From positions 52,436,676 through 52,500,675 of the forward strand of contig OX377205.1 of NCBI GenBank assembly GCA_947396885.1: a stretch of 64,000 nt of DNA. Direction: 5' to 3'. Positions 1-64,000 of the stretch are shown one piece after another. A program made the position numbers and the translations under genes. This DNA is from Heligmosomoides polygyrus polygyrus (taxonomy: Eukaryota > Nematoda > Chromadorea > Rhabditida > Heligmosomidae). Below the pieces are notes generated by a model, which made no database searches, was not told where the DNA came from, and saw nothing but the letters and a program-made list of their open reading frames with translations. Within the stretch, counting starts at the first letter, position 1. Each line of letters starts with the position of its first letter.

Positions 1-93
1 CGAACTCGCACTAGTGAGCTACATCGCAGCCAATGAGCACTCGGTCCGCAGCTCGTCGGAACTGCTCCAAGTTGGCTCCGCAGCAAAACGTCT

Positions 94-177
94 TGTCATC
101 CGCAGGATTCGAACCTGCGCCCCCCGAAGAGGACTGCGACCTGAACGCAGCGCCTTAGACCACACGGCCAGAATGAC
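94..177 (-). tRNA. tRNA-Leu (CAG), U14 variant
   Basis: U14 replaces the conserved A14 (box A, 8-14 pair); variable-arm A-U pair is G·U. Barcode EG/LI. Confidence 0.8.
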
Positions 178-214
178 ACACCACCTGCTGACTGCCCTCC
201 CTCTGCCGATCTCG

Positions 215-222
215 CACTAGTG
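215..222. other. CACTAGTG palindrome at the unit junction
   Basis: An 8-bp perfect palindrome with a central ACTAGT recurs once per unit in the spacer. It is broken at the starts of units 9693 (cactattg) and 55211, 56653, 60979 and 62009 (cactagag). No function is evident. Confidence 0.6.
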
Positions 223-290
223 AGCTACATCGCAGCCAATGAGCACTCGGTCCGCAGCTCGTCGGAACTGCTCCAAGTTGGCTCCGCAGC

Positions 291-294
291 AAAA
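291..294 (-). terminator. pol III TTTT terminator (reference copy)
   Basis: The 3' trailer on the minus strand is AGACG followed by TTTT, so termination would leave a short trailer for RNase Z. It is the minimal four-T signal and the only T run of four in a consensus unit (s+71 to s+74). Three units lose it. Confidence 0.85.
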
Positions 295-310
295 CGTCTT
301 GTCATCCGCA

Positions 311-321
311 GGATTCGAACC
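311..321 (-). promoter_or_regulatory. pol III box B (reference copy)
   Basis: Minus-strand GGTTCGAATCC is a perfect match to the B-box consensus GGTTCGANTCC bound by TFIIIC. It sits at s+91 to s+101 in each unit. About 40 units have GGTTCGTATCC, five have GGTCCGAATCC and three have GGTTTGAATCC. These lose conserved bases. Confidence 0.9.
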
Positions 322-365
322 TGCGCCCTCCGAAGAGGACTGCGACCTGAACGCAGCGCCTTAGA

Positions 366-376
366 CCACTCGGCCA
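366..376 (-). promoter_or_regulatory. pol III box A (reference copy)
   Basis: Minus-strand TGGCCGAGTGG matches the eukaryotic A-box consensus TRGCNNAGTGG at every fixed position. It spans tRNA positions 8-19 and sits at s+146 to s+156 in each unit. A14 within it is changed in five units, G18 in ten and G19 in three. Confidence 0.9.
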
Positions 377-505
377 GAATGACACATCATCCGATGACTG
401 CCCTCCCTCTGCCGAACTCGCACTAGTGAGCTACATCGCAGCCAATGAGCACTCGGTCCGCAGCTCGTCGGAACTGCTCCAAGTTGGCTCCGCAGCAAAA
501 CGTCT

Positions 506-589
506 TGTCATCCGCAGGATTCGAACCTGCGCCCTCCGAAGAGGACTGCGACCTGAACGCAGCGCCTTAGACCACTCGGCCAGAATGAC
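506..589 (-). tRNA. tRNA-Leu (CAG)
   Basis: Consensus body; EG/PI. Confidence 0.92.
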
Positions 590-711
590 ACATCATCCGC
601 TGACTGCCCTCCCTCTGCCGATCTCGCACTAGTGAGCTACATCGCAGCCAATGAGCACTCGGTCCGCAGCTCGTCGGAACTGCTCCAAGTTGGCTCCGCA
701 GCAAAACGTCT

Positions 712-795
712 TGTCATCCGCAGGACTCGAACCTGCGCCCTCCGAAGAGGACTGCGACCTGAACGCAGCGCCTTAGACCACTCGGCCAGAATGAC
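712..795 (-). tRNA. tRNA-Leu (CAG), G59
   Basis: G59, still a canonical box B; EG/LI. Confidence 0.92.
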
Positions 796-917
796 ACACC
801 ACCTGCTGACTGCCCTCCCTCTGCCGATCTCGCACTAGTGAGCTACATCGCAGCCAATGAGCACTCGGTCCGCAGCTCGTCGGAACTGCTTCAAGTTGGC
901 TCCGCAGCAAAACGTCT

Positions 918-1001
918 TGTCATCCGCAGGATTCGAACCTGCGCCCTCCGAAGAGGACTGCGACCTGAACGCAGCGCCTTAGACCACTCGGCCAGAATGA
1001 C
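918..1001 (-). tRNA. tRNA-Leu (CAG)
   Basis: Consensus body; spacer cttcaag; EG/PN. Confidence 0.92.
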
Positions 1002-1123
1002 ACATCATCCGCTGACTGCCCTCCCTCTGCCGAACTCGCACTAGTGAGCTACATCGCAGCCAATGAGCACTCGGTCCGCAGCTCGTCGGAACTGCTCCAA
1101 GTTGGCTCCGCAGCAAAACGTCT

Positions 1124-1207
1124 TGTCATCCGCAGGATTCGAACCTGCGCCCCCCGAAGAGGACTGCGACCTGAACGCAGCGCCTTAGACCACACGGCCA
1201 GAATGAC
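1124..1207 (-). tRNA. tRNA-Leu (CAG), U14 variant
   Basis: U14 and variable-arm G·U, as in the copy at 94-177; EG/LI. Confidence 0.8.
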
Positions 1208-1329
1208 ACACCACCTGCTGACTGCCCTCCCTCTGCCGATCTCGCACTAGTGAGCTACATCGCAGCCAATGAGCACTCGGTCCGCAGCTCGTCGGAACTG
1301 CTTCAAGTTGGCTCCGCAGCAAAACGTCT

Positions 1330-1413
1330 TGTCATCCGCAGGATTCGAACCTGCGCCCTCCGAAGAGGACTGCGACCTGAACGCAGCGCCTTAGACCACA
1401 CGGCCAGAATGAC
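1330..1413 (-). tRNA. tRNA-Leu (CAG), U14 variant
   Basis: U14 without the variable-arm change; EG/LI. Confidence 0.8.
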
Positions 1414-1535
1414 ACACCACCTGCTGACTGCCCTCCCTCTGCCGATCTCGCACTAGTGAGCTACATCGCAGCCAATGAGCACTCGGTCCGCAGCTCGTCG
1501 GAACTGCTTCAAGTTGGCTCCGCAGCAAAACGTCT

Positions 1536-1619
1536 TGTCATCCGCAGGATTCGAACCTGCGCCCTCCGAAGAGGACTGCGACCTGAACGCAGCGCCTTAG
1601 ACCACTCGGCCAGAATGAC
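1536..1619 (-). tRNA. tRNA-Leu (CAG)
   Basis: Consensus body; spacer cttcaag; EG/LI. Confidence 0.92.
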
Positions 1620-1741
1620 ACACCACCTGCTGACTGCCCTCCCTCTGCCGATCTCGCACTAGTGAGCTACATCGCAGCCAATGAGCACTCGGTCCGCAGC
1701 TCGTCGGAACTGCTCCAAGTCGGCTCCGCAGCAAAACGTCT

Positions 1742-1825
1742 TGTCATCCGCAGGATACGAACCTGCGCCCTCCGAAGAGGACTGCGACCTGAACGCAGCG
1801 CCTTAGACCACTCGGCCAGAATGAC
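1742..1825 (-). tRNA. tRNA-Leu (CAG), U58 variant
   Basis: U58 replaces the near-universal A58 of the T loop and box B; EG/PN. Confidence 0.75.
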
Positions 1826-1947
1826 ACATCATCCGCTGACTGCCCTCCCTCTGCCGAACTCGCACTAGTGAGCTACATCGCAGCCAATGAGCACTCGGTC
1901 CGCAGCTCGTCGGAACTGCTCCAAGTCGGCTCCGCAGCAAAACGTCT

Positions 1948-2031
1948 TGTCATCCGCAGGATACGAACCTGCGCCCTCCGAAGAGGACTGCGACCTGAAC
2001 GCAGCGCCTTAGACCACTCGGCCAGAATGAC
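1948..2031 (-). tRNA. tRNA-Leu (CAG), U58 variant
   Basis: U58; EG/PI. Second of three consecutive U58 units. Confidence 0.75.
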
Positions 2032-2153
2032 ACATCATCCGCTGACTGCCCTCCCTCTGCCGATCTCGCACTAGTGAGCTACATCGCAGCCAATGAGCAC
2101 TCGGTCCGCAGCTCGTCGGAACTGCTCCAAGTCGGCTCCGCAGCAAAACGTCT

Positions 2154-2237
2154 TGTCATCCGCAGGATACGAACCTGCGCCCTCCGAAGAGGACTGCGAC
2201 CTGAACGCAGCGCCTTAGACCACTCGGCCAGAATGAC
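2154..2237 (-). tRNA. tRNA-Leu (CAG), U58 variant
   Basis: U58; EG/MN. Third of three consecutive U58 units. Confidence 0.75.
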
Positions 2238-2359
2238 ACATCATCCGATGACTGCCCTCCCTCTGCCGAACTCGCACTAGTGAGCTACATCGCATCCAAT
2301 GAGCACTCGGTCCGCAGCTCGTCGGATCTGCTCCAAGTTGGCTCCACAGCAAAACGTCT

Positions 2360-2443
2360 TGTCATCCGCAGGATTCGAACCTGCGCCCTCCGAAGAGGAC
2401 TGCGACCTGAACGCAGCGCCTTAGACCACTCGGCCAGAATGAC
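2360..2443 (-). tRNA. tRNA-Leu (CAG)
   Basis: Consensus body; spacer gcatccaat; DA/PN. Confidence 0.92.
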
Positions 2444-2565
2444 ACATCATCCGCTGACTGCCCTCCCTCTGCCGAACTCGCACTAGTGAGCTACATCGCA
2501 GCCAATGAGCACTCGGTCCGCAGCACGTCGGAACTGCTCCAAGTTGGCTCCGCAGCAAAACGTCT

Positions 2566-2649
2566 TGTCATCCGCAGGATTCGAACCTGCGCCCTCCGAA
2601 GAGGACTGCGACCTGAACGCAGGGCCTTAGACCACTCGGCCAGAATGAC
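2566..2649 (-). tRNA. tRNA-Leu (CAG), C26
   Basis: C26 instead of G26 between D and anticodon stems; EG/LI. Confidence 0.88.
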
Positions 2650-2771
2650 ACACCACCTGCTGACTGCCCTCCCTCTGCCGATCTCGCACTAGTGAGCTAC
2701 ATCGCAGCCAATGAGCACTCGGTCCGCAGCTCGTCGGAACTGCTCCAAGTTGGCTCCGCAGCAAAACGTCT

Positions 2772-2855
2772 TGTCATCCGCAGGACTCGAACTTGCGCCC
2801 TCCGAAGAGGACTGCGACCTGAACGCAGCGCCTTAGACCACTCGGCCAGAATGAC
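2772..2855 (-). tRNA. tRNA-Leu (CAG), G59 and A52
   Basis: G59; A52 gives an A·C mismatch in the T stem and alters box B; EG/LI. Confidence 0.82.
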
Positions 2856-2977
2856 ACACCACCTGCTGACTGCCCTCCCTCTGCCGATCTCGCACTAGTG
2901 AGCTACATCGCAGCCAATGAGCACTCGGTCCGCAGCTCGTCGGAACTGCTCCAAGTTGGCTCCGCAGCAAAACGTCT

Positions 2978-3061
2978 TGTCATCCGCAGGACTCGAACCT
3001 GCGCCCTCCGAAGAGGACTGCGACCTGAACGCAGCGCCTTAGACCACTCGGCCAGAATGAC
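2978..3061 (-). tRNA. tRNA-Leu (CAG), G59
   Basis: G59; leader change ctctgtcg; EG/LI. Confidence 0.92.
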
Positions 3062-3183
3062 ACACCACCTGCTGACTGCCCTCCCTCTGTCGATCTCGCA
3101 CTAGTGAGCTACATCGCAGCCAATGAGCACTCGGTCCGCAGCTCGTCGGAACTGCTTCAAGTTGGCTCCGCAGCAAAACGTCT

Positions 3184-3267
3184 TGTCATCCGCAGGATTC
3201 GAACCTGCGCCCTCCGAAGAGGACTGCGACCTGAACGCAGCGCCTTAGACCACTCGGCCAGAATGAC
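3184..3267 (-). tRNA. tRNA-Leu (CAG)
   Basis: Consensus body; spacer cttcaag; EG/PN. Confidence 0.92.
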
Positions 3268-3389
3268 ACATCATCCGCTGACTGCCCTCCCTCTGCCGAA
3301 CTCGCACTAGTGAGCTACATCGCAGCCAATGAGCACTCGGTCCGCAGCTCGTCGGAACTGCTCCAAGTTGGCTCCGCAGCAAAACGTCT

Positions 3390-3473
3390 TGTCATCCGCA
3401 GGATTCGAACCTGCGCCCCCCGAAGAGGACTGCGACCTGAACGCAGCGCCTTAGACCACACGGCCAGAATGAC
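3390..3473 (-). tRNA. tRNA-Leu (CAG), U14 variant
   Basis: U14 and variable-arm G·U; EG/LI. Confidence 0.8.
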
Positions 3474-3595
3474 ACACCACCTGCTGACTGCCCTCCCTCT
3501 GCCGATCTCGCACTAGTGAGCTACATCGCAGCCAATGAGCACTCGGTCCGCAGCTCGTCGGAACTGCTCCAAGTTGGCTCCGCAGCAAAACGTCT

Positions 3596-3679
3596 TGTCA
3601 TCCGCAGGATTCGAACCTGCGCCCTCCGAAGAGGACTGCGACCTGAACGCAGCGCCTTAGACCACTCGGCCAGAATGAC
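3596..3679 (-). tRNA. tRNA-Leu (CAG)
   Basis: Consensus body; EG/MN. Confidence 0.92.
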
Positions 3680-3801
3680 ACATCATCCGATGACTGCCCT
3701 CCCTCTGCCGAACTCGCACTAGTGAGCTACATCGCAGCCAATGAGCACTCGGTCCGCAGCTCGTCGGAACTGCTCCAAGTTGGCTCCGCAGCAAAACGTC
3801 T

Positions 3802-3885
3802 TGTCATCCGCAGGATACGAACCTGCGCCCTCCGAAGAGGACTGCGACCTGAACGCAGCGCCTTAGACCACTCGGCCAGAATGAC
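3802..3885 (-). tRNA. tRNA-Leu (CAG), U58 variant
   Basis: U58; EG/LI. Confidence 0.75.
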
Positions 3886-4007
3886 ACACCACCTGCTGAC
3901 TGCCCTCCCTCTGCCGATCTCGCACTAGTGAGCTACATCGCAGCCAATGAGCACTCGGTCCGCAGCTCGTCGGAACTGCTCCAAGTTGGCTCCGCAGCAA
4001 AACGTCT

Positions 4008-4091
4008 TGTCATCCGCAGGATTCGAACTTGCGCCCCCCGAAGAGGACTGCGACCTGAACGCAGCGCCTTAGACCACACGGCCAGAATGAC
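4008..4091 (-). tRNA. tRNA-Leu (CAG), U14 and A52
   Basis: U14, A52 mismatch in the T stem, variable-arm G·U; EG/LI. Probably impaired. Confidence 0.75.
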
Positions 4092-4213
4092 ACACCACCT
4101 GCTGACTGCCCTCCCTCTGCCGATCTCGCACTAGTGAGCTACATCGCAGCCAATGAGCACTCGGTCCGCAGCTCGTCGGATCTGCTCCAAGTTGGCTCCA
4201 CAGCAAAACGTCT

Positions 4214-4297
4214 TGTCATCCGCAGGATTCGAACCTGCGCCCTCCGAAGAGGACTGCGACCTGAACGCAGGGCCTTAGACCACTCGGCCAGAATGGC
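4214..4297 (-). tRNA. tRNA-Leu (CAG), C2 and C26
   Basis: C2 gives C·A at acceptor pair 2-71; C26; DA/LI. Confidence 0.8.
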
Positions 4298-4419
4298 ACA
4301 CCACCTGCTGACTGCCCTCCCTCTGCCGATCTCGCACTAGTGAGCTACATCGCAGCCAATGAGCACTCGGTCCGCAGCTCGTCGGAACTGCTCCAAGTTG
4401 GCTCCGCAGCAAAACGTCT

Positions 4420-4503
4420 TGTCATCCGCAGGATTCGAACCTGCGCCCTCCGAAGAGGACTGCGACCTGAACGCAGCGCCTTAGACCACTCGGCCAGAAT
4501 GAC
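4420..4503 (-). tRNA. tRNA-Leu (CAG)
   Basis: Consensus body; EG/MN. Confidence 0.92.
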
Positions 4504-4625
4504 ACATCATCCGATGACTGCCCTCCCTCTGCCGAACTCGCACTAGTGAGCTACATCGCAGCCAATGAGCACTCGGTCCGCAGCTCGTCGGAACTGCTCC
4601 AAGTTGGCTCCGCAGCAAAACGTCT

Positions 4626-4709
4626 TGTCATCCGCAGGATTCGAACCTGCGCCCTCCGAAGAGGACTGCGACCTGAACGCAGCGCCTTAGACCACTCGGC
4701 CAGAATGAC
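4626..4709 (-). tRNA. tRNA-Leu (CAG)
   Basis: Consensus body; EG/LI. Confidence 0.92.
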
Positions 4710-4831
4710 ACACCACCTGCTGACTGCCCTCCCTCTGCCGATCTCGCACTAGTGAGCTACATCGCAGCCAATGAGCACTCGGTCCGCAGCTCGTCGGAAC
4801 TGCTCCAAGTTGGCTCCGCAGCAAAACGTCT

Positions 4832-4915
4832 TGTCATCCGCAGGATACGAACCTGCGCCCTCCGAAGAGGACTGCGACCTGAACGCAGCGCCTTAGACCA
4901 CTCGGCCAGAATGAC
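4832..4915 (-). tRNA. tRNA-Leu (CAG), U58 variant
   Basis: U58; EG/PN. Confidence 0.75.
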
Positions 4916-5037
4916 ACATCATCCGCTGACTGCCCTCCCTCTGCCGAACTCGCACTAGTGAGCTACATCGCAGCCAATGAGCACTCGGTCCGCAGCTCGT
5001 CGGATCTGCTCCAAGTTGGCTCCACAGCAAAACGTCT

Positions 5038-5327: not shown

Positions 5328-5449
5328 ACACCACCTGCTGACTGCCCTCCCTCTGCCGATCTCGCACTAGTGAGCTACATCGCAGCCAATGAGCACTCGG
5401 TCCGCAGCTCGTCGGAACTGCTCCAAGTTGGCTCCGCAGCAAAACGTCT

Positions 5450-5532
5450 TGTCATCCGCAGGATTCGAACCTGCGCCCTCCGAAGAGGACTGCGACCTGA
5501 ACGCAGCCCTTAGACCACTCGGCCAGAATGAC
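5450..5532 (-). tRNA. tRNA-Leu (CAG), one-base D-stem deletion
   Basis: 83 nt: GGCGCTG is GGGCTG, so one base at positions 25-26 is lost and the 10-25 pair or base 26 goes with it. Likely impaired or pseudogene; EG/LI. Confidence 0.7.
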
Positions 5533-5654
5533 ACACCACCTGCTGACTGCCCTCCCTCTGCCGATCTCGCACTAGTGAGCTACATCGCAGCCAATGAGCA
5601 CTCGGACCGCAGCTCGTCGGATCTGCTCCAAGTTGGCTCCACAGCAAAACGACT

Positions 5655-5737
5655 TGTCATCCGCAGGATTCGAACCTGCGCCCTCCGAAGAGGACTGCGA
5701 CCTGAACGCAGCCCTTAGACCACTCGGCCAGAATGAC
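5655..5737 (-). tRNA. tRNA-Leu (CAG), one-base D-stem deletion
   Basis: Same deletion as the copy at 5450-5532; trailer change cgacttg; DA/LI. Confidence 0.7.
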
Positions 5738-5859
5738 ACACCACCTGCTGACTGCCCTCCCTCTGCCGATCTCGCACTAGTGAGCTACATCGCAGCCAAT
5801 GAGCACTCGGACCGCAGCTCGTCGGATCTGCTCCAAGTTGGCTCCACAGCAAAACGACT

Positions 5860-8003: not shown

Positions 8004-8125
8004 ACATCATCCGCTGACTGCCCTCCCTCTGCCGATCTCGCACTAGTGAGCTACATCGCAGCCAATGAGCACTCGGACCGCAGCTCGTCGGATCTGCTCC
8101 AAGTTGGCTCCACAGCAAAACGACT

Positions 8126-8208
8126 TGTCATCCGCAGGATTCGAACCTGCGCCCTCCGAAGAGGACTGCGACCTGAACGCAGCCCTTAGACCACTCGGCC
8201 AGAATGAC
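8126..8208 (-). tRNA. tRNA-Leu (CAG), one-base D-stem deletion
   Basis: Third copy of the 83-nt deletion form; DA/LI. Confidence 0.7.
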
Positions 8209-8330
8209 ACACCACCTGCTGACTGCCCTCCCTCTGCCGATCTCGCACTAGTGAGCTACATCGCAGCCAATGAGCACTCGGACCGCAGCTCGTCGGATCT
8301 GCTCCAAGTTGGCTCCACAGCAAAACGACT

Positions 8331-10680: not shown

Positions 10681-10802
10681 ACATCATCCGCTGACTGCCC
10701 TCCCTCTGCCGATCTCGCACTAGTGAGCTACATCGCAGCCAATGAGCACTCGGTCCGCAGCTCGTCGTATCTGCTCCAAGTTGGCTCCGCAGCAAAACGT
10801 CT

Positions 10803-10886
10803 TGTCATCCGCAGGATTCGAACCTGCGCCCTCCGAAGAGGACTGCGACCTAAACGCAGCGCCTTAGACCACTCGGCCAGAATGAC
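10803..10886 (-). tRNA. tRNA-Leu (UAG), anticodon switched
   Basis: C34 is U, so the anticodon is UAG, which reads CUA (Leu). The rest of the body is consensus, with both boxes and TTTT intact. Leader catatcatccgctg; YG/PN. A single-base origin from the CAG form is inferred from the otherwise identical sequence. Confidence 0.88.
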
Positions 10887-11008
10887 ATATCATCCGCTGA
10901 CTGCCCTCCCTCTGCCGAACTCGCACTAGTGAGCTACATCGCAGCCAATGAGCACTCGGTCCGCATCTCGTCGGAACTGCTCCAAGTTGGCTCCGCAGCA
11001 AAACGTCT

Positions 11009-16242: not shown

Positions 16243-16364
16243 ACACCACCTGCTGACTGCCCTCCCTCTGCCGATCTCGCACTAGTGAGCTACATCGCAG
16301 CCAATGAGCACTCGGTCCGCAGCTCGTCGGAACTGCTTCAAGTTGGCTCCGCAGCAAAACGTCT

Positions 16365-16448
16365 TGTCATCCGCAGGATTCGAACCTGCGCCCTCCGAAG
16401 AGGACTGCGACCTAAACGCAGCGCCTTAGACCACTCGGCCAGAATGAC
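16365..16448 (-). tRNA. tRNA-Leu (UAG), anticodon switched
   Basis: Second UAG copy: U34, otherwise consensus, with the same catatcatccgctg leader as 10803-10886 but an E-type cttcaag spacer; EG/PN. Confidence 0.88.
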
Positions 16449-16570
16449 ATATCATCCGCTGACTGCCCTCCCTCTGCCGAACTCGCACTAGTGAGCTACA
16501 TCGCAGCCAATGAGCACTCGGTCCGCATCTCGTCGGAACTGCTCCAAGTTGGCTCCGCAGCAAAACGTCT

Positions 16571-21720: not shown

Positions 21721-21804
21721 TGTCATCCGCAGGATACGAACCTGCGCCCTCCGAAGAGGACTGCGACCTGAACGCAGCGCCTTAGATCACTCGGCCAGAA
21801 TGAC
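21721..21804 (-). tRNA. tRNA-Leu (CAG), U58 and A19
   Basis: A19 and U58; EA/PN. Third copy of this form. Confidence 0.7.
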
Positions 21805-21926
21805 ACATCATCCGCTGACTGCCCTCCCTCTGCCGAACTCGCACTAGTGAGCTACATCGCAGCCAATGAGCACTCGGTCCGCAGCTCGTCGGATCTGCTC
21901 CAAGTTGGCTTCGCAGCAAAACGTCT

Positions 21927-22010
21927 TGTCATCCGCAGGATTCGAACCTGCGCCCTCCGAAGAGGACTGCGACCTGAACGCAGCGCCTTAGACCCCTCGG
22001 CCAGAATGAC
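21927..22010 (-). tRNA. tRNA-Leu (CAG), G16
   Basis: G16; DG/MI. Unit 1 of the 12-unit repeat. Confidence 0.9.
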
Positions 22011-22132
22011 ACATCATCCGATGACTGCCCTCCCTCTGCCGATCTCGCACTAGTGAGCTACATCGCAGCCAATGAGCACTCGGTCCGCAGCTCGTCGGAT
22101 CTGCTCCAAGTTGGCTCCACAGCAAAACGTCT

Positions 22133-22216
22133 TGTCATCCGCAGGATTCAAACCTGCGCCCTCCGAAGAGGACTGCGACCTGAACGCAGCGCCTTAGACC
22201 ACTCGGCCAGAATGAC
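22133..22216 (-). tRNA. tRNA-Leu (CAG), U56
   Basis: U56; DA/PN. Confidence 0.75.
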
Positions 22217-22338
22217 ACATCATCCGCTGACTGCCCTCCCTCTGCCGAACTCGCACTAGTGAGCTACATCGCAGCCAATGAGCACTCGGTCCGCAGCTCG
22301 TCGGATCTGCTCGAAGTTGGCTACACAGCAAAACGTCT

Positions 22339-22422
22339 TGTCATCCGCAGGATTCGAACCTGCGCCCTCCGAAGAGGACTGCGACCTGAACGCAGCGTCT
22401 TAGACCACTCGGCCAGAATGAC
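22339..22422 (-). tRNA. tRNA-Leu (CAG), A24
   Basis: A24 gives C11·A24 in the D stem; spacer gctcgaagttggctac; DA/PI. Confidence 0.82.
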
Positions 22423-22544
22423 ACATCATCCGCTGACTGCCCTCCCTCTGCCGATCTCGCACTAGTGAGCTACATCGCAGCCAATGAGCACTCGGTCCGC
22501 AGCTCGTCGTATCTGCTCCAAGTTGGCTCCACAGCAAAACGTCT

Positions 22545-22628
22545 TGTCATCCGCAGGATTTGAACCTGCGCCCTCCGAAGAGGACTGCGACCTGAATGCG
22601 GCGCCTTAGACCACTCGGCCAGAATGAC
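22545..22628 (-). tRNA. tRNA-Leu (CAG), A57, C28, A31
   Basis: A57 is a normal purine at that site; C28·A42 and A31·C39 weaken the anticodon stem; YA/PN. Confidence 0.78.
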
Positions 22629-22750
22629 ACATCATCCGCTGACTGCCCTCCCTCTGCCGAACTCGCACTAGTGAGCTACAACGCAGCCAATGAGCACTCG
22701 GTCCGCAGCTCGTCGTATCTGCTCCAAGTTGGCTCCACAGCAAAACGTCT

Positions 22751-22834
22751 TGTCATCCGCAGGATTTGAACCTGCGCCCTCCGAAGAGGACTGCGACCTG
22801 AATGCGGCGCCTTAGACCACTCGGCCAGAATGAC
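22751..22834 (-). tRNA. tRNA-Leu (CAG), A57, C28, A31
   Basis: Same body as 22545-22628; spacer ctacaacgc; YA/PN. Confidence 0.78.
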
Positions 22835-22956
22835 ACATCATCCGCTGACTGCCCTCCCTCTGCCGAACTCGCACTAGTGAGCTACATCGCAGCCAATGAG
22901 CACTCGGTCCGCAGCTCGTCGTATCTGCTCCAAGTTGGCTCCACAGCAAAACGTCT

Positions 22957-23040
22957 TGTCATCCGCAGGATTTGAACCTGCGCCCTCCGAAGAGGACTGC
23001 GACCTGAATGCGGCGCCTTAGACCACTCGGCCAGAATGAC
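22957..23040 (-). tRNA. tRNA-Leu (CAG), A57, C28, A31
   Basis: Third consecutive copy of this body; YA/PN. Confidence 0.78.
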
Positions 23041-23162
23041 ACATCATCCGCTGACTGCCCTCCCTCTGCCGAACTCGCACTAGTGAGCTACATCGCAGCC
23101 AATGAGCACTCGGTCCGCAGCTCGTCGTATCTGCTCCAAGTTGGCTCCGCAGCAAAACGTCT

Positions 23163-23246
23163 TGTCATCCGCAGGATTCGAACCTGCGCCCTCCGAAGAG
23201 GACTGCGACCTGAACGCAGCGTCTTAGACCACTCGGCCAGAATGAC
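23163..23246 (-). tRNA. tRNA-Leu (CAG), A24
   Basis: C11·A24; YG/MN. Confidence 0.82.
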
Positions 23247-23368
23247 ACATCATCCGATGACTGCCCTCCCTCTGCCGAACTCGCACTAGTGAGCTACATC
23301 GCAGCCAATGAGCACTCGGTCCGCAGCTCGTCGGAACTGCTCCAAGTTGGCTCCGCAGCAAAACGTCT

Positions 23369-23452
23369 TGTCATCCGCAGGATACGAACCTGCGCCCTCC
23401 GAAGAGGACTGCGACCTGAACGCAGCGCCTTAGACCACTCGGCCAGAATGAC
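23369..23452 (-). tRNA. tRNA-Leu (CAG), U58 variant
   Basis: U58; EG/PN. Confidence 0.75.
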
Positions 23453-23574
23453 ACATCATCCGCTGACTGCCCTCCCTCTGCCGAACTCGCACTAGTGAGC
23501 TACATCGCAGCCAATGAGCACTCGGTCCGCAGCTCGTCGGAACTGCTCCAAGTTGGCTCCGCAGCAAAACGTCT

Positions 23575-23658
23575 TGTCATCCGCAGGATTCGAACCTGCG
23601 CCCTCCGAAGAGGACTGCGACCTGAACGCAGCGCCTTAGACCACTCGGCCAGATTGAC
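23575..23658 (-). tRNA. tRNA-Leu (CAG), A5
   Basis: A5·A68 acceptor mismatch; EG/MN. Confidence 0.82.
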
Positions 23659-23780
23659 ACATCATCCGATGACTGCCCTCCCTCTGCCGAACTCGCACTA
23701 GTGAGCTACAACGCAGCCAATGAGCACTCGGTCCGCAGCTCGTCGGAACTGCTCCAAGTTGGCTCCGCAGCAAAACGTCT

Positions 23781-23864
23781 TGTCATCCGCAGGATTCGAA
23801 CCTGCGCCCTCCGAAGAGGACGGCGACCTGAACGCAGCGCCTTAGACCACTCGGCCAGAATGAC
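23781..23864 (-). tRNA. tRNA-Leu (CAG), C42
   Basis: U28·C42 anticodon-stem mismatch; spacer ctacaacgc; EG/LI. Confidence 0.82.
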
Positions 23865-23986
23865 ACACCACCTGCTGACTGCCCTCCCTCTGCCGATCTC
23901 GCACTAGTGAGCTACATCGCAGCCAATGAGCACTCGGTCCGCAGCTCGTCGGATCTGCTCCAAGTTGGCTCCACAGCAAAACGTCT

Positions 23987-24070
23987 TGTCATCCGCAGGA
24001 TTCGAACCTGCGCCCTCCGAAGAGGACTGCGACCTGAACGCAGCGCCTTAGACCACTCGGCCAGAATGAC
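23987..24070 (-). tRNA. tRNA-Leu (CAG)
   Basis: Consensus body; DA/MN. Confidence 0.92.
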
Positions 24071-24192
24071 ACATCATCCGATGACTGCCCTCCCTCTGCC
24101 GAACTCGCACTAGTGAGCTACATCGCAGCCAATGAGCACTCGGTCCGCAGCTCGTCGGAACTGCTCCAAGTTGGCTCCGCAGCAAAACGTCT

Positions 24193-24276
24193 TGTCATCC
24201 GCAGGATTCGAACCTGCGCCCTCCGAAGTGGACTGCGACCTGAACGCAGCGCCTTAGACCACTCGGCCAGAATGAC
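24193..24276 (-). tRNA. tRNA-Leu (CAG), variable-arm A·A
   Basis: U to A in the variable arm gives an A·A mismatch; EG/PN. Confidence 0.85.
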
Positions 24277-24398
24277 ACATCATCCGCTGACTGCCCTCCC
24301 TCTGCCGAACTCGCACTAGTGAGCTACATCGCAGCCAATGAGCACTCGGTCCGCAGCTCGTCGGATCTGCTCCAAGTTGGCTTCGCAGCAAAACGTCT

Positions 24399-24482
24399 TG
24401 TCATCCGCAGGATTCGAACCTGCGCCCTCCGAAGAGGACTGCGACCTGAACGCAGCGCCTTAGACCCCTCGGCCAGAATGAC
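24399..24482 (-). tRNA. tRNA-Leu (CAG), G16
   Basis: Duplicate of 21927-22010; DG/MI. Confidence 0.9.
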
Positions 24483-24604
24483 ACATCATCCGATGACTGC
24501 CCTCCCTCTGCCGATCTCGCACTAGTGAGCTACATCGCAGCCAATGAGCACTCGGTCCGCAGCTCGTCGGATCTGCTCCAAGTTGGCTCCACAGCAAAAC
24601 GTCT

Positions 24605-24688
24605 TGTCATCCGCAGGATTCAAACCTGCGCCCTCCGAAGAGGACTGCGACCTGAACGCAGCGCCTTAGACCACTCGGCCAGAATGAC
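24605..24688 (-). tRNA. tRNA-Leu (CAG), U56
   Basis: Duplicate of 22133-22216; DA/PN. Confidence 0.75.
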
Positions 24689-24810
24689 ACATCATCCGCT
24701 GACTGCCCTCCCTCTGCCGAACTCGCACTAGTGAGCTACATCGCAGCCAATGAGCACTCGGTCCGCAGCTCGTCGGATCTGCTCGAAGTTGGCTACACAG
24801 CAAAACGTCT

Positions 24811-24894
24811 TGTCATCCGCAGGATTCGAACCTGCGCCCTCCGAAGAGGACTGCGACCTGAACGCAGCGTCTTAGACCACTCGGCCAGAATGAC
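24811..24894 (-). tRNA. tRNA-Leu (CAG), A24
   Basis: Duplicate of 22339-22422; DA/PI. Confidence 0.82.
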
Positions 24895-25016
24895 ACATCA
24901 TCCGCTGACTGCCCTCCCTCTGCCGATCTCGCACTAGTGAGCTACATCGCAGCCAATGAGCACTCGGTCCGCAGCTCGTCGTATCTGCTCCAAGTTGGCT
25001 CCACAGCAAAACGTCT

Positions 25017-25100
25017 TGTCATCCGCAGGATTTGAACCTGCGCCCTCCGAAGAGGACTGCGACCTGAATGCGGCGCCTTAGACCACTCGGCCAGAATGAC
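25017..25100 (-). tRNA. tRNA-Leu (CAG), A57, C28, A31
   Basis: Duplicate of 22545-22628; YA/PN. Confidence 0.78.
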
Positions 25101-25222
25101 ACATCATCCGCTGACTGCCCTCCCTCTGCCGAACTCGCACTAGTGAGCTACAACGCAGCCAATGAGCACTCGGTCCGCAGCTCGTCGTATCTGCTCCAAG
25201 TTGGCTCCACAGCAAAACGTCT

Positions 25223-25306
25223 TGTCATCCGCAGGATTTGAACCTGCGCCCTCCGAAGAGGACTGCGACCTGAATGCGGCGCCTTAGACCACTCGGCCAG
25301 AATGAC
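25223..25306 (-). tRNA. tRNA-Leu (CAG), A57, C28, A31
   Basis: Duplicate of 22751-22834, including ctacaacgc; YA/PN. Confidence 0.78.
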
Positions 25307-25428
25307 ACATCATCCGCTGACTGCCCTCCCTCTGCCGAACTCGCACTAGTGAGCTACATCGCAGCCAATGAGCACTCGGTCCGCAGCTCGTCGTATCTGC
25401 TCCAAGTTGGCTCCACAGCAAAACGTCT

Positions 25429-25512
25429 TGTCATCCGCAGGATTTGAACCTGCGCCCTCCGAAGAGGACTGCGACCTGAATGCGGCGCCTTAGACCACTC
25501 GGCCAGAATGAC
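25429..25512 (-). tRNA. tRNA-Leu (CAG), A57, C28, A31
   Basis: Duplicate of 22957-23040; YA/PN. Confidence 0.78.
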
Positions 25513-25634
25513 ACATCATCCGCTGACTGCCCTCCCTCTGCCGAACTCGCACTAGTGAGCTACATCGCAGCCAATGAGCACTCGGTCCGCAGCTCGTCGT
25601 ATCTGCTCCAAGTTGGCTCCGCAGCAAAACGTCT

Positions 25635-25718
25635 TGTCATCCGCAGGATTCGAACCTGCGCCCTCCGAAGAGGACTGCGACCTGAACGCAGCGTCTTAGA
25701 CCACTCGGCCAGAATGAC
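25635..25718 (-). tRNA. tRNA-Leu (CAG), A24
   Basis: Duplicate of 23163-23246; YG/MN. Confidence 0.82.
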
Positions 25719-25840
25719 ACATCATCCGATGACTGCCCTCCCTCTGCCGAACTCGCACTAGTGAGCTACATCGCAGCCAATGAGCACTCGGTCCGCAGCT
25801 CGTCGGAACTGCTCCAAGTTGGCTCCGCAGCAAAACGTCT

Positions 25841-25924
25841 TGTCATCCGCAGGATACGAACCTGCGCCCTCCGAAGAGGACTGCGACCTGAACGCAGCGC
25901 CTTAGACCACTCGGCCAGAATGAC
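25841..25924 (-). tRNA. tRNA-Leu (CAG), U58 variant
   Basis: U58; EG/PN. First unit of the five-unit repeat. Confidence 0.75.
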
Positions 25925-26046
25925 ACATCATCCGCTGACTGCCCTCCCTCTGCCGAACTCGCACTAGTGAGCTACATCGCAGCCAATGAGCACTCGGTCC
26001 GCAGCTCGTCGGAACTGCTCCAAGTTGGCTCCGCAGCAAAACGTCT

Positions 26047-26130
26047 TGTCATCCGCAGGATTCGAACCTGCGCCCTCCGAAGAGGACTGCGACCTGAACG
26101 CAGCGCCTTAGACCACTCGGCCAGATTGAC
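26047..26130 (-). tRNA. tRNA-Leu (CAG), A5
   Basis: A5·A68; EG/MN. Confidence 0.82.
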
Positions 26131-26252
26131 ACATCATCCGATGACTGCCCTCCCTCTGCCGAACTCGCACTAGTGAGCTACAACGCAGCCAATGAGCACT
26201 CGGTCCGCAGCTCGTCGGAACTGCTCCAAGTTGGCTCCGCAGCAAAACGTCT

Positions 26253-26336
26253 TGTCATCCGCAGGATTCGAACCTGCGCCCTCCGAAGAGGACGGCGACC
26301 TGAACGCAGCGCCTTAGACCACTCGGCCAGAATGAC
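26253..26336 (-). tRNA. tRNA-Leu (CAG), C42
   Basis: U28·C42; EG/LI. Confidence 0.82.
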
Positions 26337-26458
26337 ACACCACCTGCTGACTGCCCTCCCTCTGCCGATCTCGCACTAGTGAGCTACATCGCAGCCAATG
26401 AGCACTCGGTCCGCAGCTCGTCGGATCTGCTCCAAGTTGGCTCCACAGCAAAACGTCT

Positions 26459-26542
26459 TGTCATCCGCAGGATTCGAACCTGCGCCCTCCGAAGAGGACT
26501 GCGACCTGAACGCAGCGCCTTAGACCACTCGGCCAGAATGAC
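26459..26542 (-). tRNA. tRNA-Leu (CAG)
   Basis: Consensus body; DA/MN. Confidence 0.92.
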
Positions 26543-26664
26543 ACATCATCCGATGACTGCCCTCCCTCTGCCGAACTCGCACTAGTGAGCTACATCGCAG
26601 CCAATGAGCACTCGGTCCGCAGCTCGTCGGAACTGCTCCAAGTTGGCTCCGCAGCAAAACGTCT

Positions 26665-26748
26665 TGTCATCCGCAGGATTCGAACCTGCGCCCTCCGAAG
26701 TGGACTGCGACCTGAACGCAGCGCCTTAGACCACTCGGCCAGAATGAC
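26665..26748 (-). tRNA. tRNA-Leu (CAG), variable-arm A·A
   Basis: Variable-arm A·A; EG/PN. Confidence 0.85.
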
Positions 26749-26870
26749 ACATCATCCGCTGACTGCCCTCCCTCTGCCGAACTCGCACTAGTGAGCTACA
26801 TCGCAGCCAATGAGCACTCGGTCCGCAGCTCGTCGGAACTGCTCCAAGTTGGCTCCGCAGCAAAACGTCT

Positions 26871-28808: not shown

Positions 28809-28930
28809 ACATCATCCGATGACTGCCCTCCCTCTGCCGAACTCGCACTAGTGAGCTACATCGCAGCCAATGAGCACTCGGTCCGCAGCTCGTCGGAACT
28901 GCTCCAAGTTGGCTCCGCAGCAAAACGTTT

Positions 28931-29014
28931 TGTCATCCGCAGGATACGAACCTGCGCCCTCCGAAGAGGACTGCGACCAGAACGCAGCGTCTTAGACCAC
29001 TCGGCCAGAATGAC
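28931..29014 (-). tRNA. tRNA-Leu body with CUG (Gln-codon) anticodon
   Basis: A35 is U, so the anticodon loop is TTCTGGT and the anticodon CUG, which pairs with the glutamine codon CAG. The body keeps the Leu-type variable arm and A73. The copy also has U58 and C11·A24, and the AAACG trailer. If made and charged by LeuRS it would misread Gln codons as Leu; the other defects make a dead copy more likely. EG/LI. Confidence 0.7.
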
Positions 29015-29136
29015 ACACCACCTGCTGACTGCCCTCCCTCTGCCGATCTCGCACTAGTGAGCTACATCGCAGCCAATGAGCACTCGGTCCGCAGCTCGTC
29101 GTATCTGCTCCAAGTTGGCTCCACAGCAAAACGTCT

Positions 29137-33134: not shown

Positions 33135-33256
33135 ACATCATCCGCTGACTGCCCTCCCTCTGCCGATCTCGCACTAGTGAGCTACATCGCAGCCAATGAG
33201 CACTCGGTCCGCAGCTCGTCGTATCTGCTCCAAGTTGGCTCCACAGCAAAACGTCT

Positions 33257-33470: not shown

Positions 33471-33670
33471 NNNNNNNNNNNNNNNNNNNNNNNNNNNNNN
33501 NNNNNNNNNNNNNNNNNNNNNNNNNNNNNNNNNNNNNNNNNNNNNNNNNNNNNNNNNNNNNNNNNNNNNNNNNNNNNNNNNNNNNNNNNNNNNNNNNNNN
33601 NNNNNNNNNNNNNNNNNNNNNNNNNNNNNNNNNNNNNNNNNNNNNNNNNNNNNNNNNNNNNNNNNNNNNN
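33471..33670. other. assembly gap, 200 N
   Basis: Exactly 200 N. The left flank stops after tgtcatcc and the right flank resumes at gcaggattcg, which is the next base of the same unit, so the flanks join in perfect phase when the N run is removed. Confidence 0.99.
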
Positions 33671-54756: not shown

Positions 54757-54878
54757 ACACCACCTGCTGACTGCCCTCCCTCTGCCGATCTCGCACTAGT
54801 GAGCTACATCGCAGCCAATGAGCACTCGGTCCGCAGCTCGTCGGATCTGCTCCAAGTTGGCTCCACAGCAAAACGTCT

Positions 54879-54962
54879 TGTCATCCGCAGGATTCGAACC
54901 TGCGCCCTCCGAAGAGGACTGCGACTTGAACGCAGGGCCTTAGACCACTCGGCCAGAATGAC
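54879..54962 (-). tRNA. tRNA-Leu (CAA), anticodon switched
   Basis: G36 is A, so the loop is TTCAAGT and the anticodon CAA, which reads UUG (Leu). C26 is the only other body change; boxes and TTTT are intact. It has no intron, whereas tRNA-Leu(CAA) genes of many eukaryotes do. DA/LI. Confidence 0.85.
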
Positions 54963-55084
54963 ACACCACCTGCTGACTGCCCTCCCTCTGCCGATCTCGC
55001 ACTAGTGAGCTACATCGCAGCCAATGAGCACTCGGTCCGCAGCTCGTCGGATCTGCTCCAAGTTGGCTCCACAGCAAAACGTCT

Positions 55085-61264: not shown

Positions 61265-61348
61265 TGTCATCCGCAGGATTCGAACCTGCGCCCTCCGAAG
61301 AGGACTGCGACCTGAACGCAGCGCCTTAGACCACTCGGCCAGAATGAC
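61265..61348 (-). tRNA. tRNA-Leu (CAG)
   Basis: Consensus body; EG/PI. Confidence 0.92.
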
Positions 61349-61470
61349 ACATCATCCGCTGACTGCCCTCCCTCTGCCGATCTCGCACTAGTGAGCTACA
61401 TCGCAGCCAATGAGCACTCGGTCCGCAGCTCGTCGTATCTGCTCCAAGTTGGCTCCACAGCAAAACGTCT

Positions 61471-61554
61471 TGTCATCCGCAGGATTCGGACCTGCGCCCT
61501 CCGAAGAGGACTGCGACCTGAACGCAGCGCCTTAGACCACTCGGCCAGAATGAC
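61471..61554 (-). tRNA. tRNA-Leu (CAG), C55
   Basis: C55; YA/PN. Confidence 0.78.
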
Positions 61555-61676
61555 ACATCATCCGCTGACTGCCCTCCCTCTGCCGAACTCGCACTAGTGA
61601 GCTACATCGCAGCCAATGAGCACTCGGTCCGCAGCTCGTCGGATCTGCTCCAAGTTGGCTCCGCAGCAAAACGTCT

Positions 61677-61760
61677 TGTCATCCGCAGGATTCGAACCTG
61701 CGCCCTCCGAAGAGGACTGCGACCTGAACGCAGCGCCTTAGACCACTCGGCCAGAATGAC
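61677..61760 (-). tRNA. tRNA-Leu (CAG)
   Basis: Consensus body; DG/LI. Confidence 0.92.
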
Positions 61761-61882
61761 ACACCACCTGCTGACTGCCCTCCCTCTGCCGATCTCGCAC
61801 TAGTGAGCTACATCGCAGCCAATGAGCACTCGGTCCGCAGCTCGTCGGATCTGCTCCAAGTTGGCTCCACAGCAAAACGTCT

Positions 61883-61966
61883 TGTCATCCGCAGGATTCG
61901 AACCTGCGCCCTCCGAAGAGGACTGCGACCTGAACGCAGCGCCTTAGACCACTCGGCCAGAATGAC
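61883..61966 (-). tRNA. tRNA-Leu (CAG)
   Basis: Consensus body; DA/MN. Confidence 0.92.
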
Positions 61967-62088
61967 ACATCATCCGATGACTGCCCTCCCTCTGCCGAAC
62001 TCGCACTAGAGAGCTACATCGCAGCCAATGAGCACTCGGTCCGCAGCTCGTCGGAACTGCTCCAAGTTGGCTCCGCAGCAAAACGTCT

Positions 62089-62172
62089 TGTCATCCGCAG
62101 GATTCGAACCTGCGCCCTCCGAAGAGGACTGCGACCTGAACGCAGCGCCTTAGACCACTCGGCCAGAATGAC
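62089..62172 (-). tRNA. tRNA-Leu (CAG)
   Basis: Consensus body; unit starts cactagag; EG/PI. Confidence 0.92.
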
Positions 62173-62294
62173 ACATCATCCGCTGACTGCCCTCCCTCTG
62201 CCGATCTCGCACTAGTGAGCTACATCGCAGCCAATGAGCACTCGGTCCGCAGCTCGTCGGAACTGCTCCAAGTTGGCTCCGCAGCAAAACGTCT

Positions 62295-62378
62295 TGTCAT
62301 CCGCAGGATTCGAACCTGCGCCCTCCGAAGAGGACTGCGACCTGAACGCAGCGCCTTAGACCACTCGGCCAGAATGAC
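62295..62378 (-). tRNA. tRNA-Leu (CAG)
   Basis: Consensus body; EG/PI. Confidence 0.92.
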
Positions 62379-62500
62379 ACATCATCCGCTGACTGCCCTC
62401 CCTCTGCCGATCTCGCACTAGTGAGCTACATCGCAGCCAATGAGCACTCGGTCCGCAGCTCGTCGTATCTGCTCCAAGTTGGCTCCACAGCAAAACGTCT

Positions 62501-62584
62501 TGTCATCCGCAGGATTCGGACCTGCGCCCTCCGAAGAGGACTGCGACCTGAACGCAGCGCCTTAGACCACTCGGCCAGAATGAC
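62501..62584 (-). tRNA. tRNA-Leu (CAG), C55
   Basis: C55; YA/PN. Confidence 0.78.
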
Positions 62585-62706
62585 ACATCATCCGCTGACT
62601 GCCCTCCCTCTGCCGAACTCGCACTAGTGAGCTACATCGCAGCCAATGAGCACTCGGTCCGCAGCTCGTCGGATCTGCTCCAAGTTGGCTCCACAGCAAA
62701 ACGTCT

Positions 62707-62790
62707 TGTCATCCGCAGGATTCGAACCTGCGCCCTCCGAAGAGGACTGCGACCTGAATGCGGCGCCTTAGACCACTCGGCCAGAATGAC
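62707..62790 (-). tRNA. tRNA-Leu (CAG), C28 and A31
   Basis: C28, A31 in a D-type unit; DA/PN. First of three in a row. Confidence 0.8.
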
Positions 62791-62912
62791 ACATCATCCG
62801 CTGACTGCCCTCCCTCTGCCGAACTCGCACTAGTGAGCTACATCGCAGCCAATGAGCACTCGGTCCGCAGCTCGTCGGAACTGCTCCAAGTTGGCTCCGC
62901 AGCAAAACGTCT

Positions 62913-62996
62913 TGTCATCCGCAGGATTCGAACCTGCGCCCTCCGAAGAGGACTGCGACCTGAATGCGGCGCCTTAGACCACTCGGCCAGAATGAC
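62913..62996 (-). tRNA. tRNA-Leu (CAG), C28 and A31
   Basis: C28, A31 in an E-type unit; EG/PI. Confidence 0.8.
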
Positions 62997-63118
62997 ACAT
63001 CATCCGCTGACTGCCCTCCCTCTGCCGATCTCGCACTAGTGAGCTACATCGCAGCCAATGAGCACTCGGTCCGCAGCTCGTCGTATCTGCTCCAAGTTGG
63101 CTCCACAGCAAAACGTCT

Positions 63119-63202
63119 TGTCATCCGCAGGATTCGAACCTGCGCCCTCCGAAGAGGACTGCGACCTGAATGCGGCGCCTTAGACCACTCGGCCAGAATG
63201 AC
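63119..63202 (-). tRNA. tRNA-Leu (CAG), C28 and A31
   Basis: C28, A31 in the usual Y-type unit; YA/PN. Confidence 0.8.
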
Positions 63203-63324
63203 ACATCATCCGCTGACTGCCCTCCCTCTGCCGAACTCGCACTAGTGAGCTACATCGCAGCCAATGAGCACTCGGTCCGCAGCTCGTCGGAACTGCTCCA
63301 AGTTGGCTCCGCAGCAAAACGTTT

Positions 63325-63408
63325 TGTCATCCGCAGGATACGAACCTGCGCCCTCCGAAGAGGACTGCGACCTGAACGCAGCGCCTTAGACCACTCGGCC
63401 AGAATGAC
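63325..63408 (-). tRNA. tRNA-Leu (CAG), U58 variant
   Basis: U58 with AAACG trailer; EG/LI. Confidence 0.75.
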
Positions 63409-63530
63409 ACACCACCTGCTGACTGCCCTCCCTCTGCCGATCTCGCACTAGTGAGCTACATCGCAGCCAATGAGCACTCGGTCCGCAGCTCGTCGGATCT
63501 GCTCCAAGTTGGCTCCACAGCAAAACGTCT

Positions 63531-63614
63531 TGTCATCCGCAGGATTCGAACCTGCGCCCTCCGAAGAGGACTGCGACCTGAACGCAGCGCCTTAGACCAC
63601 TCGGCCAGAATGAC
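63531..63614 (-). tRNA. tRNA-Leu (CAG)
   Basis: Consensus body; DA/MN. Confidence 0.92.
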
Positions 63615-63736
63615 ACATCATCCGATGACTGCCCTCCCTCTGCCGAACTCGCACTAGTGAGCTACATCGCAGCCAATGAGCACTCGGTCCGCAGCTCGTC
63701 GGAACTGCTCCAAGTTGGCTCCGCAGCAAAACGTCT

Positions 63737-63820
63737 TGTCATCCGCAGGATTCGAACCTGCGCCCTCCGAAGAGGACTGCGACCTGAACGCAGCGCCTTA
63801 GACCACTCGGCCAGAATGAC
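63737..63820 (-). tRNA. tRNA-Leu (CAG)
   Basis: Consensus body; EG/PI. Confidence 0.92.
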
Positions 63821-63942
63821 ACATCATCCGCTGACTGCCCTCCCTCTGCCGATCTCGCACTAGTGAGCTACATCGCAGCCAATGAGCACTCGGTCCGCAG
63901 CTCGTCGGATCTGCTCCAAGTTGGCTCCACAGCAAAACGTCT

Positions 63943-64000
63943 TGTCATCCGCAGGATTCGAACCTGCGCCCTCCGAAGAGGACTGCGACCTGAACGCAGC
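63943..64000 (-). tRNA. tRNA-Leu (CAG), truncated by the window end
   Basis: The last 58 nt of the gene are present with consensus sequence, including the anticodon; the 5' 26 nt lie beyond the window. DA head. Confidence 0.88.

Follow-up and report, generated by a model that had tools for sequence, protein, structure and literature searches.

A tandem array of some 310 tRNA-Leu(CAG) genes with satellite-like turnover in Heligmosomoides polygyrus

The whole stretch of DNA analysed here (64,000 nucleotides, hereafter the window) is occupied by a single tandem array. TRF reported one array spanning positions 1-64000, with a period of 206, 310.7 copies and 96% matches, and at the default score threshold 206 was the only period reported; the autocorrelation maximum likewise fell at lag 206 (lags 1-4999 tested). 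ARAGORN identified 308 tRNA genes across the window, on the minus strand throughout, and our count of their anticodons gave 303 Leu-CAG, two Leu-TAG, two Leu-CAA and one with anticodon CTG. The unit comprises an 84-nt gene and a 122-nt spacer with a G+C content of 59%. No edge of the array lies within these 64 kb and, because both ends of the window fall mid-unit, the array extends beyond both of them. The sequence-only reading had described a tRNA-Leu(CAG) satellite of about 310 copies, running in one direction and without an edge, and this description is confirmed; its remark that nothing else lies in the window has to be corrected, as one gene is interrupted by a run of 200 N. The array, this gap and the elements of a representative unit are as follows:

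1..64000, minus strand: tandem array of about 310 copies of a 206-bp unit, one tRNA-Leu gene per unit (ARAGORN, TRF, autocorrelation, unit cutting)
300..383, minus strand: representative unit, 84-nt mature tRNA-Leu(CAG) region with a long variable arm and no encoded CCA (Rfam RF00005, 53.9 bits; sequence)
366..376, minus strand: internal promoter box A of the representative unit, TGGCCGAGTGG (sequence)
347..349, minus strand: anticodon CAG of the representative unit (ARAGORN, sequence)
311..321, minus strand: internal promoter box B of the representative unit, GGTTCGAATCC (sequence)
291..294, minus strand: T4 run 3' of the representative gene, likely a pol III terminator (sequence)
33471..33670, no strand: assembly gap of 200 N that interrupts one tRNA gene (the sequence on both sides stays exactly in phase with the repeat)

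In the scanned region (1-2100), all 10 complete copies matched Rfam RF00005 with 49.5-53.9 bits (gathering score 29). The tRNA folded from the unit consensus is unbroken: all 24 stem pairs set out do form, one of them as G-U, the pairs of the variable arm form as well, and the invariant tRNA bases are present. The consensus gene ends in GATGACA, followed by AGACG, so that no CCA is encoded. The units were then compared copy by copy, using the 301 full-length, N-free units out of 308 pieces; the seven pieces omitted are five 205-bp units, the gap piece and the end piece, and the final 119 bases of the window fall in no counted unit. The motifs which we take to be boxes A and B, having identified them in the representative unit against the general consensus, are widely kept. 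Box A occurs as the exact string in 274 units and in a relaxed form in 285, and box B as GGTTCGANTCC in 245, or in 251 if the sixth base may be G or A. The anticodon is CAG in 296 units, and TTTT lies within 25 nt downstream of the gene in 298. The covariance match and the long variable arm, together with box A, box B and the T-run in 285, 251 and 298 of the 301 units, respectively, and the absence of an encoded CCA, place the gene among eukaryotic nuclear tRNA-Leu genes.

Several other origins and contents were considered and rejected. One unit gave no blastn match to plasmids and phages, and two words of 27 nt, one taken from the spacer and one from the tRNA, had no exact match in viral contigs or in bacterial and archaeal contigs (from which records of the window's own genome or a very near one may be missing). 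With no plasmid, phage, viral or prokaryotic match in these collections and no encoded CCA, a bacterial, phage or plasmid origin was dismissed. The idea that the spacer holds another RNA gene was also discarded, as Rfam at E<=1 listed RF00005 alone for positions 1-2100 (eight weaker, overlapping matches of the same clan are not displayed), and so was a protein gene, since the window contains no ORF of at least 250 aa (ATG/GTG/TTG starts, closed ends).

Many of the copies are visibly altered. By our own criteria, which follow general tRNA rules and were set after the variant table had been seen, 118 of the 301 units carry a structural lesion and 183 are lesion-free, while structure, box A, box B, T4 and CAG are all kept in 178. 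A change at an invariant T-loop base is present in 40 units. Six of the 11 positions of box B are variable, and the box is altered in 50 (looser consensus) to 56 (stricter consensus) units. A length of 205 bp was measured for five units, and in three of these the gene itself has lost 1 nt. The earlier claim of a full gene every 206 bp is thus correct as to one gene per unit, and too generous as to the completeness of the genes and the regularity of the spacing. That about two fifths of the copies look damaged is what would be expected if most of them were surplus. Individual variant copies are located as follows:

5389..5798, minus strand: two adjoining units of 205 bp, each lacking 1 nt of its tRNA gene (unit cutting)
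8065-8269, minus strand: third 205-bp unit, with the same 1-nt gene deletion as the preceding pair (unit cutting)
28930..29015, minus strand: copy with anticodon CTG in a Leu tRNA body (ARAGORN; one of 301 units)

The 301 units comprise 124 distinct sequences, with a mean pairwise difference of 2.7%. In an inert satellite the unit would show no constraint; here we detected none at the level of single copies, but common alleles are fewer in the gene (see below). Segregating sites number 36 of 84 in the gene and 43 of 122 in the spacer (Fisher p=0.31; gene/spacer ratio 1.22, bootstrap 95% 0.85-1.72). Lesion-causing alleles account for 22 of 41, against 22.9 expected by chance (P=0.44), and they are not rarer than the others (median 3 versus 2 copies per allele, p=0.43). 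As site density is similar and lesions occur at chance level, per-copy constraint is undetectable. Alleles found in at least 30 copies, a cut-off picked once the variant table had been seen, are fewer in the gene (1 of 41) than in the spacer (8 of 49; p=0.036), although three of these eight spacer alleles (-8, -6 and -3) are fully linked and therefore represent one event. A rank test over all alleles gave p=0.14, the medians (3 for the gene, 2 for the spacer) pointing, if anywhere, in the opposite direction, and rare alleles per site are more numerous in the gene (0.48) than in the spacer (0.34). Since array copies share descent, the alleles are not all independent. The shortage of common gene alleles is a weak sign of array-wide constraint, given by one marginal test. 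A search for an outgroup array for comparison found none.

The arrangement of the variants points to the way in which the array changes. The longest exact repeat consists of two overlapping copies:

21788..24365, minus strand: first copy of a 2578-bp exact repeat whose copies lie 12 units (2472 bp) apart (exact-repeat search)
24260-26837, minus strand: second copy, overlapping the first by 106 bp (exact-repeat search)

This repeat is the trace of a recent 12-unit duplication. Further exact repeats of 1426, 1108 and 1048 bp lie at distances of 5, 17 and 8 units, respectively (lags up to 59 units searched). Close neighbours (not more than 30 units apart) are slightly more alike than distant pairs (more than 100 units apart), by 0.22 differences compared with 0.00 (sd 0.05) in shuffles, and certain variants are confined to one part of the array. 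A simple dimer pattern was rejected: lag 2 is low, but lags 7 and 13 are low too, and lag 1 is not. The units are near-identical and carry block duplications, a pattern from which we infer the exchange process itself.

It could be argued that the array is an assembly expansion or misjoin and that the true array is far shorter. There is a gap inside it, and tRNA counts are known to vary with the assembly, as for Peronospora effusa, with 7,391 versus 270 genes in two assemblies (PMC9584435). However, 124 distinct units and regionally confined variants do not resemble the product of one read reused, and the gap flanks are exactly in phase (the gene starts at 33256 and 33868 lie 612 apart, i.e. 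2x206 + 200), as though a single contig had been cut and rejoined. Moreover, in Phytophthora infestans read depth matched the assembly for representative tRNA families (PMC9584435). We regard such an artefact as extremely improbable.

With its head-to-tail order, one gene per unit and more than the roughly 100 copies that we set as a minimum, the locus is a single-isotype tandem tRNA array. Such arrays are already known in a few eukaryotes, and ours is a further case. P. infestans has monomeric tRNA arrays of up to hundreds of near-identical copies, among them 271 tRNA-Cys genes on Chr6; these are likewise single-gene tandem arrays with grouped variants, their growth is ascribed to unequal crossing-over, and the Leu array shown also contains an assembly gap. 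The Cys unit, however, measures 513 nt versus 206 bp here, and that Leu array is AAG, not CAG (PMC9584435). Nippostrongylus brasiliensis carries about 150 copies of a repeat of about 200 bp with one tRNA-Trp gene each, and a second repeat of 90 tRNA-Ser copies with an 80-bp spacer; the isotypes differ from ours and the copy numbers are lower (PMC5765664). The ncRNA arrays of Hydractinia are a close published precedent (PMC11067881), to be compared with a spacer of 122 nt here. In Entamoeba, tRNA units are also tandem and some are of a single type, but the spacers are A+T-rich and, in E. histolytica and E. dispar, contain short tandem repeats (PMC2652664). An Entamoeba-type array was consequently rejected for the G+C-rich spacer and the lone TRF period of our window. 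The human 1q23.3 repeat is also tRNA-bearing, tandem and variable in copy number, but its units are 7.3 kb long, number 9-43 per allele, and consist of tRNA genes for less than 6% (PMC4041453). The sequence-only reading was right that such arrays are known in some lineages only; Entamoeba, its example, is not the sole case, as the single-gene arrays of N. brasiliensis, with a near-equal unit size, demonstrate.

Based on our observations, we consider it likely that unequal exchange has turned a real tRNA-Leu(CAG) gene into an amplified array resembling a satellite, of which a part is transcribed and the copies are surplus. The segment that would have multiplied head to tail is 206 bp long and consists of a tRNA-Leu(CAG) gene of eukaryotic nuclear type together with its short flanks, and unequal exchange and conversion would keep the array similar while leaving its length free to vary, as in rDNA or a satellite. 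A fraction of the intact copies may be transcribed by pol III and supply Leu-CAG tRNA. As the copy number presumably exceeds the need, single copies could decay freely, and variants harmful to the tRNA would seldom become common array-wide.

An alternative explanation is dose amplification, in which the copies are selected for a high demand for tRNA-Leu(CAG), e.g. for CUG-rich proteins or in oocytes. The 178 units that look functional by our criteria agree with it. On the other hand, per-copy constraint is undetectable, lesions have accumulated in 118 units, and the change at the invariant T-loop base has reached 40. In P. infestans the correlation between tRNA copy number and codon use is only modest (R=0.41), and among the Pro and Ser families those that have expanded most decode rare codons (PMC9584435). 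Selection for dose therefore seems unlikely; of the two possibilities named in the sequence-only reading, the variation within the array agrees best with a satellite made up of a pol III gene, whereas a dose effect for CUG decoding gains little support.

The array might also be an inert satellite with a silent tRNA gene, or serve chromatin (TFIIIC binding, a boundary, nuclear positioning) and not translation. Its turnover is satellite-like and its single copies behave as neutral; CTCF binds to the human 1q23.3 repeat, for which a boundary function has been proposed (PMC4041453), and the authors of the P. infestans study mention a function in chromatin as an idea (PMC9584435). However, variation extends to box B, where TFIIIC binds, and the tRNA specified by the consensus is unbroken, something that an array dead for long would not have to preserve. 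We find this explanation quite improbable. In a specific form of it, hundreds of putative TFIIIC/pol III sites, about one nucleosome repeat apart, would make the array a chromatin or nuclear-positioning element, with the tRNA as a by-product and selection acting on the array, not on the copies; this seems to us highly doubtful.

The Leu-CAG array constitutes a large case, readable copy by copy, and joins the few lineages in which a tRNA gene has become satellite-like. It makes it possible to examine at which level selection acts, that of the single copy or that of the array as a whole. Its variant copies, a few of them with an altered anticodon, might also give rise to tRNAs that are new or that misread codons.

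Over the whole window (1-64000), TRF returned a single row with period 206, 310.7 copies and 96% matches, and the strongest autocorrelation of the window lies at a lag of 206 bp. ARAGORN predicted 308 tRNA genes, every one of them on the minus strand; a further gene is split by an assembly gap and another is truncated at the window end. As the array begins and stops mid-unit, both edges are located outside the window, and the sequence-only reading, which claimed about 310 copies in one direction and no edge, is borne out. The Rfam tRNA model, applied to bases 1-2100, matched all 10 complete copies there with 49.5-53.9 bits (gathering score 29); no second RNA family (E up to 1) was listed for these bases among matches that omit 8 overlapping weaker ones, all of the same clan. 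ORFs of at least 250 aa are absent across the window.

In gene orientation, each unit carries an 84-nt tRNA-Leu gene with a long variable arm and discriminator A, followed a few bases 3' by a T4 run, and the spacer of 122 nt has a G+C content of 59%. The gene contains box A TGGCCGAGTGG and box B GGTTCGAATCC, assigned by their general consensus sequences. CCA is not encoded in the gene, which together with the pol III signals points to a eukaryotic nuclear tRNA gene. A spacer word and a gene word had zero exact matches in viral_contigs and genome_contigs, and a blastn search with one unit hit no plasmid or phage (the collections searched perhaps lack the window's own genome), as expected of eukaryotic sequence. 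The consensus unit contains 18 CpG versus 17.6 expected; being undepleted, it bears no sign of long-term methylation-driven decay.

Cutting in phase gave 308 pieces, of which the 301 of 206 bp without N were counted; five 205-bp units, the gap piece and the end piece were excluded, as were the last 119 window bases. The exact consensus tRNA is present in 148 of the 301 units, and 183 have neither a broken stem pair nor an altered invariant base, by our own criteria, which were fixed after the variant table had been seen and use a general list of invariant tRNA bases. Of the 301 units, 178 combine an intact structure with both promoter boxes, the T4 run and the CAG anticodon. At least one lesion is present in 118/301 units, most commonly a change of the invariant A of the T loop (40 units); two anticodon-stem mismatches, almost always found together, are also common (22 and 21 units). 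The view that a full gene recurs every 206 bp was therefore too generous, as ARAGORN calls lesioned copies tRNAs as well.

By anticodon, the 308 calls divide into 303 Leu-CAG, two each of Leu-TAG and Leu-CAA, and a single CTG. The ARAGORN positions of the five variants are as follows:

10802-10887, minus strand, anticodon TAG
16364-16449, minus strand, anticodon TAG
28930-29015, minus strand, anticodon CTG, named Gln by ARAGORN, otherwise a Leu body
54878-54963, minus strand, anticodon CAA
56320-56405, minus strand, anticodon CAA

The four TAG and CAA copies have Leu anticodons, each a single base off CAG. Provided that it is expressed and continues to be charged with Leu, the CTG copy would misread Gln codons; comparable anticodon shifts have been described in the Drosophila simulans complex (PMC7919458).

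Were every copy important, the gene would be expected to vary less than the spacer. This is not the case: variable sites make up 36/84 of the gene and 43/122 of the spacer (Fisher p=0.31), a variability ratio of 1.22 (bootstrap interval 0.85-1.72). Lesion-causing alleles account for 22 of the 41 in the gene versus 22.9 (sd 2.8) expected when identical base changes are put at random positions (P=0.44), or 23.1 under a coarser transition/transversion null, and they do not occur in fewer copies than other alleles (p=0.43). In the opposite direction, alleles that reach 30 copies or more form a smaller share of the gene alleles (1/41) than of the spacer alleles (8/49, p=0.036), and mean minor frequency is lower in the gene (0.9% versus 2.5%). 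This signal is weak: the 30-copy cut-off was set after the variant table had been seen; of the eight common spacer alleles, three are in full linkage; a rank test covering every allele yields p=0.14, the median being higher in the gene; and the number of rare alleles per site is greater in the gene (0.48 versus 0.34). Taken together, these results suggest that individual copies can decay freely and that any constraint would fall on variants spreading through the array.

An exact repeat of 2578 bp occurs at 21788-24365 and 24260-26837, 12 units apart, and shorter exact repeats are found at distances of 5, 17 and 8 units. A change at gene position 111 is limited to roughly the first third of the window, and units no more than 30 apart are slightly more similar than those over 100 apart. 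Six lags (distances in units), picked post hoc, were each compared with 500 shuffles: lags 2, 7 and 13 fell below all shuffles (units more alike) and lag 4 below all but one, while lags 1 (p=0.56) and 3 (p=0.17) showed no departure. This amounts to a short-range order at lags 2, 7 and 13 that is lacking at 1 and 3. The pattern resembles exchange of multi-unit blocks more than a simple dimer. Spacer changes at -8, -6 and -3 upstream of the gene are completely linked (193 units versus 108), which suggests two founder unit types.

The sequence is interrupted once:

33471-33670, gap of 200 N inside one tRNA gene

The flanking gene starts are exactly 612 bp apart (2 x 206 + 200), so the sequence resumes in repeat phase, for which the chance is about 1 in 206. 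Most likely, the contig was cut here and rejoined with a fixed-size gap. Array length is an assembly estimate, though not obviously inflated, as the 301 units comprise 124 distinct sequences.

Real and striking as the array is, others of its type have been reported before from several lineages. Single-gene tRNA arrays are published (PMC9584435, PMC5765664): in N. brasiliensis, a repeat of roughly 200 bp that contains tRNA-Trp reaches close to 150 copies, and tRNA-Ser is present in 90 copies with a spacer of 80 bp (PMC5765664). The limitation of such arrays to some lineages holds; Entamoeba, the sole lineage named in a 2010 survey (PMC2888827), is not the only case, given those published for P. 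infestans and N. brasiliensis. Entamoeba spacers are described as A+T-rich, in contrast to the 59% G+C found here, and those of E. histolytica and E. dispar contain short tandem repeats (PMC2652664); the human 1q23.3 repeat has units of 7.3 kb (PMC4041453) versus 206 bp. No Leu-CAG array of 206-bp units was found in the open-licence papers searched; the supplementary tables of the array papers may contain one.

For P. infestans, concordance of assembly and read depth is reported for representative tRNA families, together with only a modest correlation of tRNA copy number with codon use (R=0.41, PMC9584435). What is new here is the copy-by-copy data, in which about two in five units are lesioned and no per-copy constraint is visible. 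The sequence-only reading offered dose and satellite as explanations; these data favour surplus amplification, in which a real gene would have been multiplied satellite-like by unequal exchange, over amplification strictly for CUG decoding.
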